Positions 36,145 to 40,382 of a stretch of DNA of 41,959 nucleotides are shown here, in pieces; the first letter of the stretch is position 1, and each line of letters begins with the position of its first letter. The stretch is from NCBI GenBank assembly GCA_944390895.1, contig CALXRQ010000015.1, positions 1 to 41,959 on the forward strand, in the 5' to 3' direction. Source of the stretch: an uncultured Alphaproteobacteria bacterium. Its GTDB lineage: Bacteria; Pseudomonadota; Alphaproteobacteria; RF32; CAG-239. Made by a program: the position numbers and the translations under genes. The notes under the pieces are model-generated. The model was not told the origin of the DNA. It saw only the letters and a program-made list of their open reading frames with translations, and ran no database searches.

Positions 36145-36294
36145 TGTCATCCTGAGCCTGTCGAAGCATCTCAGCCTTACCACAATTGTCATCCTGAACA
36201 AAGTGAAGCAACGAAGTGAGTGAGCAACATCGATGTCGAACTCCATCCCAGCCTTATAATATTGCTGAGACCCTTCGACAAGCACAGGGTGACA
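36145..36294. repeat. MITE-like palindromic element
   Basis: A 31-bp left terminus (36145-36175) beginning TGTCATCCTGAGCCTGTCGA and ending ATCTCAGC matches in inverted orientation a 31-bp right terminus (36264-36294), with five differences in 31. The inside (88 bp) holds another copy of the TGTCATCCTGA half motif (36187-36197). The termini match the inverted repeats that frame the GIY-YIG gene at 39369-39759. No coding frame, and no obvious target duplication. Confidence 0.8.
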
Positions 36295-39282: not shown

Positions 39283-39308
39283 AGAAGAACAAAATGAAAA
39301 GCGAAAAT
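39283..39308 (+). repeat. 26-bp direct repeat, left copy (target-site duplication)
   Basis: Identical to 39775-39800 over 26 bases. It contains the ribosome site and first five codons (MKSEN) of the gene at 39786. Here the codons run on into the inserted sequence and stop at TAA 39339-39341 after 15 residues (MKSENCWVEVFPFVI). Confidence 0.92.
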
Positions 39309-39774
39309 TGCTGGGTTGAGGTTTTTCCTTTTGTTATATAATCCTGAGCAAAGCGAAGGATACGTGATTGTCATGTTGAGCGTAGCGAAACATCTCAGCA
39401 AATTATATTACTAAGAGAAAAATGAAAGATTACTATGTATACATAATGACCAACAAGATATGCTACGTACTTTATATCGGTGTGACCGGTAATTTGGTCA
39501 GAAGGGTTTATGAACACAAAAATAAATTGATAGAAGGTTTTACTAAGAAATACAGTATTAATAAATTAGTTTATTTTGAAACAACTGAAAATATCAAAGA
39601 TGCCATTCGGCGAGAAAAGCAATTGAAGGGATGGCGCCGGGATAGAAAAAATAACTTGATAGAACAAAAAAATCCTTTATGGAAGGATTTGTATGAGGAT
39701 ATAATCGGCTGAGATTCTTCCTCAAGCAAAAAGAGACTTTTTGCTTGGTCAGAATGACAGCAGCAGTAAAGCAG
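39309..39774 (+). mobile_element. GIY-YIG nuclease element with inverted repeats and 26-bp target duplication
   Basis: The insert is 466 bp between two 26-bp direct repeats. From left to right it has a degenerate half motif (39341-39361, ATCCTGAGCAAAGCGAAGGA), an inverted repeat at 39369-39399 beginning TGTCATGTTGAG and ending ATCTCAGC, the GIY-YIG gene (39422-39712), and the opposite inverted repeat at 39708-39759. The right repeat carries an extra perfect hairpin, CAAGCAAAAAG-AGA-CTTTTTGCTTG. The nuclease stop codon lies inside the right repeat. The termini match those of the MITE-like element at 36145-36294. The structure is seen directly; that it moves, and that the nuclease drives the movement, is inference. 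Confidence 0.75.
39422..39712 (+). CDS. GIY-YIG endonuclease of a palindromic mobile element
   Basis: A 96-residue protein of the small single-domain GIY-YIG family (COG2827-like). The sequence begins DYYVYIMTNKICYVLYIGVT, giving the GIY (VYI) and YIG motifs. GNLVRRVYEHK carries the conserved Arg and His, KLVYFETTEN the usual acidic strand, and RREKQLKGWRRDRKNNLIE the characteristic C-terminal region of the family. The gene starts 22 bases after the left inverted repeat, and its stop (TGA 39710-39712) lies in the right repeat, so the coding frame is shaped by the element. It is AT-rich compared with flanking genes. It could nick or cleave DNA during transposition; this role is proposed, not known. 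Confidence 0.85.
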   Translation: MKDYYVYIMTNKICYVLYIGVTGNLVRRVYEHKNKLIEGFTKKYSINKLVYFETTENIKDAIRREKQLKGWRRDRKNNLIEQKNPLWKDLYEDIIG

Positions 39775-39800
39775 AGAAGAACAAAATGAAAAGCGAAAAT
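39775..39800 (+). repeat. 26-bp direct repeat, right copy (target-site duplication)
   Basis: Exact copy of 39283-39308. This copy provides the ribosome site and start codon of the downstream gene. Confidence 0.92.
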
Positions 39801-40382
39801 AAATACATTGGTGATGAAACCTTCGGGAAAATGCTTGAACATTATAAATGCCCGACCCCTTTGGACATTGTCCGCCTGCGTTTTGCGGGAGCGGTTTGCA
39901 GTCCCAATCTGGAGCTGCGCCCCTCGGACGTCATTTCGTCTTTTTGGCCGCAGGGACAGGCGCCCCGGCTTGAAACCAAAGACGAGGCCGATTTGTTTTT
40001 CAAGTTTTTCATGGGGTTGTGGGATGAGGTTTTTGAAAACGTCAAACTCAACCGTATTCGTTTGCCCAAGCAGAACCCTGCCGATTTGAAATTTTGGTGC
40101 GAAGCGCGCTTTAACGAGATAGAATGGGGCTATGTCGAAGGTTTCTGGGGCGGAAAGCAGGATTTGAAGATTCCGGCCTATCTGGCGGAAATGATTGATT
40201 CTTTGAGCGATCTGGCCGGCGTTTACAGGAGTCTGGAGAAAAAACTTGACAATTCCGAAAATTCGGATGAAATAATTCAAACTCTTGAACATACCGACAA
40301 AATGGTTGAAAAATCAATGGCTTTCATTATTGAAAATTCGGTATTGCCGCGGATAGAAAGCCTGACGAGAGTTGTGCATTAA
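39786..40382 (+). CDS. Hypothetical protein interrupted upstream by a mobile element
   Basis: A 198-residue protein from ATG 39786 (MKSENKYIGDETFGKMLEHY), chosen because an identical ribosome site and start survive in the upstream repeat. An in-frame TTG at 39741 lies in the mobile element. It is mostly helical and polar, with a W-rich middle (WGYVEGFWGGKQD) and a helical C-terminus (LEHTDKMVEKSMAFIIEN). It has no signal peptide or membrane helix and no family was recognised. The insertion separates it by about 490 bp from its presumed original promoter near 39250-39282, so its expression may have changed. Confidence 0.7.
   Translation: MKSENKYIGDETFGKMLEHYKCPTPLDIVRLRFAGAVCSPNLELRPSDVISSFWPQGQAPRLETKDEADLFFKFFMGLWDEVFENVKLNRIRLPKQNPADLKFWCEARFNEIEWGYVEGFWGGKQDLKIPAYLAEMIDSLSDLAGVYRSLEKKLDNSENSDEIIQTLEHTDKMVEKSMAFIIENSVLPRIESLTRVVH

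Follow-up and report, generated by a model that had tools for sequence, protein, structure and literature searches.

Results

The insert and its site

The window, by which we mean the whole stretch of 41,959 nucleotides that was analysed, carries a small GIY-YIG nuclease gene in an insert that lies between two direct repeats and contains hairpin repeats of the REP type (Table 1). The direct repeats at 39283-39308 and 39775-39800 are identical at 26 of 26 positions; by our own estimate, which assumes an even base composition, chance would produce a perfect pair of 26-mers within 1.5 kb with a probability of the order of 1e-10. Read by eye, the frame that runs through the left repeat stops after 15 residues (M-K-S-E-N-C-W-V-E-V-F-P-F-V-I-stop), and the 198-aa ORF downstream (39786-40382) takes its start from the right repeat, both as stated in a preliminary description of this DNA. 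The product of this ORF, the target gene, had no Pfam match at E 0.001 and no NCBIfam match at E 0.01.

Table 1. Positions of the features in the window, and clear duplications at other copies of the element
Feature	Position	Strand	Remark
Gene-less REP cluster of the same family as the window's repeats	36145..36294	no strand	beside an ORF like argS
Left copy of the 26-bp target-site duplication, with dead-end start of the next gene	39283..39308	+	26/26 identity to right copy
Insertion, 466 bp	39309..39774	no strand	missing in 6/6 congeners
Degenerate REP hairpin, ATCCTGAGCAAAGCGAAGGAT, without GTC tag	39341..39361	+	by eye; core found by search
Left REP, TGTC-(hairpin)-CTCAGC, TGTCATGTTGAGCGTAGCGAAACATCTCAGC	39369..39399	+	exact match to the 62-copy genome pattern
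GIY-YIG nuclease gene, 96 aa	39422..39712	+	PF01541, E 1.4e-13
Right REP, inverted, TGTCATTCTGACC...GGAAGAATCTCAGC; GCTGAG-(hairpin, long inner stem)-GACA	39708..39759	-	nuclease stop inside
Right copy of the 26-bp duplication	39775..39800	+	downstream gene start regained
Target gene, 198 aa	39786..40382	+	in 7/7 genus genomes
Duplication at L140, 49 bp			3' end of helicase-like gene; clear single-copy target
Duplication at L146, 16 bp			clear single-copy target
Duplication at L242, 54 bp			start of mce-like gene; clear single-copy target
Duplication at L051, about 24 bp			around gene start; by eye; clear single-copy target

In all six congeners the 26-mer is found as one copy before the target gene, with 0 to 3 mismatches, and the site is uninterrupted, the 26-mer being directly continuous with both flanks and the insert absent. 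A single, uninterrupted copy of the site in six relatives indicates that the insertion is derived in the lineage of the window and that the 26 bp were duplicated from the target. The insertion at 39309-39774 is thus real and derived, and the insertion with target duplication proposed in the preliminary description is borne out. An empty site (6/6 congeners) and a target duplication, two hallmarks of a transposable element, are both present at this locus. The inverted repeats had also been taken for the ends of the element. This has to be corrected: beyond the left REP (39369) the insert continues for another 60 bp, and beyond the right REP for another 15 bp, so that it does not end where the repeats do. 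Because the 466 bp contain no transposase, a simple IS element was discarded.

The nuclease gene

The one gene of note in the insert, whose other ORFs are of no note, belongs to the GIY-YIG superfamily: the 96-aa ORF scored 51.4 bits against the Pfam profile PF01541, which has a curated cut-off of 22.6. The invariant columns of a 19-sequence alignment include Y7, Y18, G20, R28, H32, E65 and N84, conserved residues that presumably have catalytic roles. By sequence, the only solved structures matched were those of two UPF0213 proteins and of UvrC; the UPF0213 proteins are the nearest (1zg2, E 5.1e-8). As previously noted, the stop codon falls within the right repeat; the TGA (39710-39712) is part of its inner tail, GCTGAG. 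No intron or intein was seen within the 466-bp insert.

The window's genome holds a second GIY-YIG gene, 59% identical to that of the window, on contig C14. Of the six congeners, two have a further member of the family, with 61 and 62% identity, and the other four gave no match at E 0.001. Relatives of the nuclease occur in 33 of 72,556 plasmid records. A phage homing gene was set aside, since no match was obtained in 50,697 phage records at E 1e-5, and so was a defence gene, for which there was no PADLOC match.

Hairpin repeats in the window and in its genome

The preliminary description counted two inverted repeats. Both are present, and the count was incomplete, since each is a hairpin and a degenerate third one precedes them at 39341-39361. 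A first pattern had 46 sites in the window's genome vs 2 for the reversed pattern; the form TGTC-(hairpin)-CTCAGC occurs as 62 units, the window's left REP included, vs 0 for the reversed control. None of the six congeners contains a single unit of this type, including the two with another member of the nuclease family. Many of the units are paired in inverted orientation, tags outward, across a short spacer, and it is the place of this spacer that the nuclease gene takes in the window. The genome has a second repeat class, with the tail CCAGGT. The ORF beside the gene-less cluster of the window is, from its sequence, one that we take to be argS.

REPs with such features were described by Di Nocera et al. 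(2013; PMC3733652) as CGTC REPs. They begin with CGTC, often TGTC, have AT as first stem pairs and a CCA tail, and form head-head dimers with the tags outside; they include dRS3 of Neisseria and RPE-4 and RPE-6 of Rickettsia, and are also found in alpha-proteobacteria and Bacteroidetes (PMC3733652). The window's repeats share with them the head-head dimers, the many dispersed copies, and TGTC at both ends. They depart from them in the stem, which starts with AT pairs but has only 5 bp (ATGTT/AACAT or ATTCT/AGAAT) before mismatches instead of 8-9 bp, and in the tail, which is CTCAGC instead of an unpaired tail that is mostly CCA. Stems of 8 bp are present in many relatives. Each of the window's inverted repeats is one half of a head-head dimer of CGTC-type REP palindromes, in a divergent form, with the gene in the spacer. 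The preliminary description knew of no well-described element of this type; its ends at least resemble a published class.

Only one match to a Y1 transposase was found in the window's genome, on contig C29; a GTAG-type hairpin lies upstream of it, and the 1852 bases examined contain none of the CTCAGC REPs. Mobilisation by a RAYT was set aside on these grounds. The GTAG tag and the Y1 transposase gene of RAYT/REPtron elements are both lacking in the window's insert, which has TGTC ends and a PF01541 gene. On C29 a GTCACTCCGGGCTTGATCCGGAGT unit starts directly behind the Y1 profile match (L294, about 1400-1852).

The gene between outward-tagged hairpins in other genomes

We assembled 176 loci of the nuclease family: 28 from relatives, 28 + 40 from 397 genomes of the phylum, and 80 named GTDB loci, which are the best 80 of at least 565 confirmed GTDB candidates. 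Flanks were counted at 170 of them, the other six having less than 150 bp on one side. Two sets served as controls, 30 more distant GIY-YIG genes and 135 positions shifted by 2.5 kb. In the strict test a hairpin consisted of a GTCAY tag and a stem of 8 bp in which one mismatch was allowed; in the relaxed test two were allowed. Outward-tagged hairpins were present on both sides of the gene at 68/170 loci in the strict test (relatives 3/27, phylum 30/67, named 35/76) and at 104/170 in the relaxed one (8/27, 38/67 and 58/76, respectively). The distant genes had them at 0/30 (strict) and 1/30 (relaxed), and the shifted positions at 0/135 and 1/135. The short-stemmed repeats of the window itself pass the relaxed test only. 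The reversed arrangement was also seen, as expected if neighbouring arrays contain both orientations, at 29/170 loci in the strict test (relatives 1, phylum 15, named 13) and at 61/170 in the relaxed one (3, 27 and 31).

A scan that presupposed no tag, with all 64 tags and six exact stem pairs, ranked TCA, GTC and CAT, which are frames of GTCAT, as the top three in the phylum and named sets. GTC stood on both sides at 31/67 phylum and 28/76 named loci; among the relatives its signal was weak (2/27, rank 6). No tag occurred on both sides at more than 1/30 control loci. In the 68 strict cases the gene fits tightly between its hairpins, with a median distance of 28.5 nt from the hairpin to the start codon and 16 nt from the stop codon to the hairpin. 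Judged by record titles, the strict cases within the named set belong to Proteobacteria, Bacteroidota, Chloroflexi, Spirochaetes, Elusimicrobia, Ignavibacteria, Omnitrophus, Clostridia and several Patescibacteria. These counts support the idea, already put forward in the preliminary description, of a general class in which the gene and its ends make up a compact unit.

Tails of the hairpins and co-occurrence with the nuclease

The search imposed GTC and a stem that begins with A/T, and left the base before GTC and the tail free. The 68 strict cases have 136 ends. C or T preceded GTC at 130 of these; CCA was the tail at 95, CTC at 20, CTA at 12 and another at 9. Both results fit the C/TGTC tag and the CCA tail of CGTC REPs. 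Left and right tails were of the same class (CC or CT) in 66/80 elements (Fisher p 2.6e-8), after 23 of the 103 two-ended elements, with another tail on at least one side, had been left out. The tail class required 12 changes on a tree of 118 nucleases, vs at least 27 when it was shuffled freely and at least 22 when it was shuffled within host classes (200 shufflings each). The tail class follows the nuclease tree, which indicates that gene and ends travel together, although linkage alone could produce such agreement.

We also asked how often the nuclease and one dRS3-like repeat pattern (at most one mismatch) occur in the same genome, a strong family match being one with a best E of at most 1e-20. 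Such a match was found in 108/397 genomes, and at least 10 copies of the pattern in 29/397, of which 22 had a strong family match and 7 did not (odds ratio 10.3, p 2e-8). The seven exceptions had 12 to 92 copies, and 62 of the 108 family-bearing genomes lacked the pattern, which covers one repeat type only; both figures limit what the co-occurrence can be taken to mean.

Duplications and empty sites at other copies

Direct repeats were searched in 70-nt flanks, counting non-REP repeats just outside the ends with a score of at least 12. They were found at 14/115 gene-bearing elements vs 0/567 mismatched flank pairs, and at 13/110 gene-less dimers, several of which are from the same locus, vs 0/854 mismatched pairs. 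The window's 26-bp repeat scores just 9 in this test because it lies partly outside the 70-nt flank. Four clear cases are listed in Table 1; the gene at L140 is presumably a helicase and that at L242 presumably mce, for methylmalonyl-CoA epimerase. At L126, L135, L161, L122 and L099 the duplications are spacers of repeat arrays, and tandem REP-spacer arrays do occur. The recurrence of 20-30-bp duplications envisaged in the preliminary description holds in part: duplications occur elsewhere, but in a minority of elements, several are array spacers, and the length varies from 16 to 54 bp in the clear cases; at most copies they are absent or decayed. A survey of the 164 loci flanked by 350 bp to either side contributed the duplications at L242 and L051, and also that at L237 (G336), where an imperfect duplication of 124 bp, apparently of the 3' end of the neighbouring gene, brackets a GIY-YIG gene with its repeats.

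Sites with and without the element could be compared on Sphingobium plasmids. Seven records have it in the spacer that separates fnrL from a response-regulator gene, and five lack it. Eight of the twelve were aligned: three have the full element, two a solo hairpin, and three no element, one of these last having an unrelated palindrome and one another hairpin. The solo hairpin (L258 and L259, Sphingobium TomTYG64 and TomTYG74) is tagged on both sides, GTC...GAC, as if two ends had merged, and could be the scar of a collapse or a precursor. No target duplication was evident at this plasmid site. At L242, a search of 40 genus genomes (33 matched, 30 loci inspected) gave no clean empty site because the upstream sequences are too divergent; the element stood before the mce start in 3/30 inspected loci. 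For the Shinella and Rhizobium plasmids, too, no clean empty site was obtained. Two of the palindromes met in these comparisons occupy sites where relatives carry the GIY-YIG element. Upstream of mce in G505 (L272) there is a different, non-CGTC palindrome, CCCCTCCCC...GGGGAGGGG, around which about 36 bp of the mce start are duplicated, and a similar one, CCTCTCTCC...GGGGAGAGGG, lies in the fnrL/response-regulator spacer of TomTYG72 (L260). The long duplication at L272 implies that such duplications need not be made by the nuclease.

Discussion

That the gene moves together with its ends is well supported. The insertion is derived and flanked by a target duplication, the gene-end unit recurs, and gene-less relatives of its ends are present at high copy number. 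We think it likely that this is a mobile element built like a REPtron, that is, a head-head dimer of CGTC-type REPs whose spacer holds a stand-alone GIY-YIG gene, with the nuclease as the mover. The nuclease would recognise its own hairpin ends, either as a single-strand hairpin or as a cruciform, and nick the DNA there; the gene-bearing dimer, or a gene-less dimer acted on in trans, would then go into intergenic DNA, and the repair of far-apart staggered nicks would leave a long target duplication, 26 bp in the window. We infer that the GIY-YIG protein is the catalyst and that it reads both hairpin and tail; DNA transfer and the formation of the duplication may follow the route just outlined. 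Branched DNA is the substrate of Slx1, a member of the YhbQ/YazA family, which makes it plausible that such a nuclease acts on hairpins. Several observations weigh against this reading: the insert reaches beyond the REPs, duplications mark a minority of copies and vary in length, none is evident at the Sphingobium site, seven genomes rich in the dRS3-like pattern lack a strong family match and 62 of the 108 with such a match lack the pattern, few of the close relatives have both ends, and two congeners have a nuclease of the family but no REP of this type.

A first alternative makes the nuclease a structure-specific endonuclease of the Slx1/UPF0213 kind that cuts REP cruciforms or hairpins; it would accompany the REPs as a selfish passenger or because it keeps the genome stable, and other enzymes would spread them. 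The sequence-matched structures are, after all, limited to two UPF0213 proteins and UvrC, Slx1 works on branched DNA and has YhbQ and YazA in its family (PMC7017083), prokaryotic Slx1-like proteins are described as having the domain in its minimal, free-standing form (PMC1564403), and REP-rich genomes without a strong match to the nuclease family exist. This explanation nevertheless seems unlikely to us, because gene and ends moved in one insert and recur as a unit across phyla, because the ends are found at 0/30 (strict) or 1/30 (relaxed) of the more distant GIY-YIG genes, and because the one Y1 transposase match of the genome has a GTAG-type hairpin and no REP of the window's type within 1852 bases.

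A second alternative dispenses with an enzyme altogether: the insertion and its 26-bp repeat would result from errors of replication or repair, such as template switching at palindromes, and the nuclease gene would be a passenger. The variable length of the duplications (16-54 bp in clear cases, 124 bp at L237), the duplication of about 36 bp at the non-CGTC palindrome of the G505 mce start, the mismatch between insert boundaries and REP ends, and the tandem REP-spacer arrays all fit with such errors. They leave unexplained, however, why one nuclease subfamily so often sits within the dimer and why the tails agree with the nuclease tree, and we regard this alternative as improbable. An element that spreads by homing ends up in the same allele and leaves no target duplication. 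Free-standing homing, in which repair would copy the element into unoccupied alleles cut by the nuclease, could appeal to the homing endonucleases among GIY-YIG enzymes (PMC1564403) and to the element before the mce start in 3/30 inspected loci, but it appears very improbable, given that the element lies at unrelated sites, that some copies have duplications, that no intron or intein is visible in the insert and that 50,697 phage records gave no match (E 1e-5).

A REPtron-like element moved by its nuclease can be compared with several known systems. The ends of the relatives share with CGTC REPs the C/TGTC tag, the AT first pairs, the short tail, the head-head dimers and the high copy number, and the window's copies are a divergent form of them, in which the stem has 5 bp and the tail is CTCAGC. 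The difference is the GIY-YIG gene inside the dimer: Di Nocera et al. found no transposase gene associated with these REPs, which according to them apparently have no dedicated transposase (PMC3733652). The REPtron or REPIN-RAYT system likewise has one small nuclease gene between inverted REP hairpins and gene-less dimers at high copy number, but there a GTAG tag goes with a tyrosine transposase, and here a GTC tag with a GIY-YIG nuclease and, at some copies, long target duplications. Stand-alone proteins of the UPF0213/YhbQ/Slx1 kind have the same domain family and minimal size; the more distant GIY-YIG genes of the phylum, which we would guess to be YhbQ-like, lack the flanking hairpins. Finally, Penelope-like retroelements and GIY-YIG homing endonucleases also place such a nuclease in a mobile element, in contrast with a 466-bp insert devoid of an intron, an intein or another notable ORF. 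Among the matches listed in the open PMC literature (bioRxiv being outside its scope), none appears to link a GIY-YIG nuclease to CGTC REPs, and within open PMC no paper mentions both 'GIY-YIG' and 'REP sequences'. The sole paper with both 'GIY-YIG' and 'extragenic palindrom' names a RAYT and a GIY-YIG gene as clade-specific genes and does not link the two.

We lean slightly towards a wider proposal, namely that this GIY-YIG subfamily is the dedicated mobiliser of the CGTC REP superfamily in many phyla and the counterpart of the RAYTs, in elements free of transposase and recombinase, where a structure-specific nuclease acts on hairpin ends and leaves long, variable duplications. CGTC REPs, catalogued in 2013 without an enzyme, would thereby gain a candidate, and because this candidate is encoded between the repeats themselves the question of the enzyme becomes directly testable. 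If the proposal is true, GIY-YIG nucleases alone can drive DNA transposition, and many proteins annotated just as 'GIY-YIG nuclease family protein' acquire a function; the package of gene and hairpins found in several phyla may then be the missing engine of a large class of bacterial repeats. In the window's genome the second GIY-YIG gene also lies among such repeats: at the end of its contig (L001, G000:C14:1-2379) there is a direct duplication of about 1 kb, each copy of which has four-unit CTCAGC arrays and CCAGGT dimers, and the gene stands between two copies of a repeat array.
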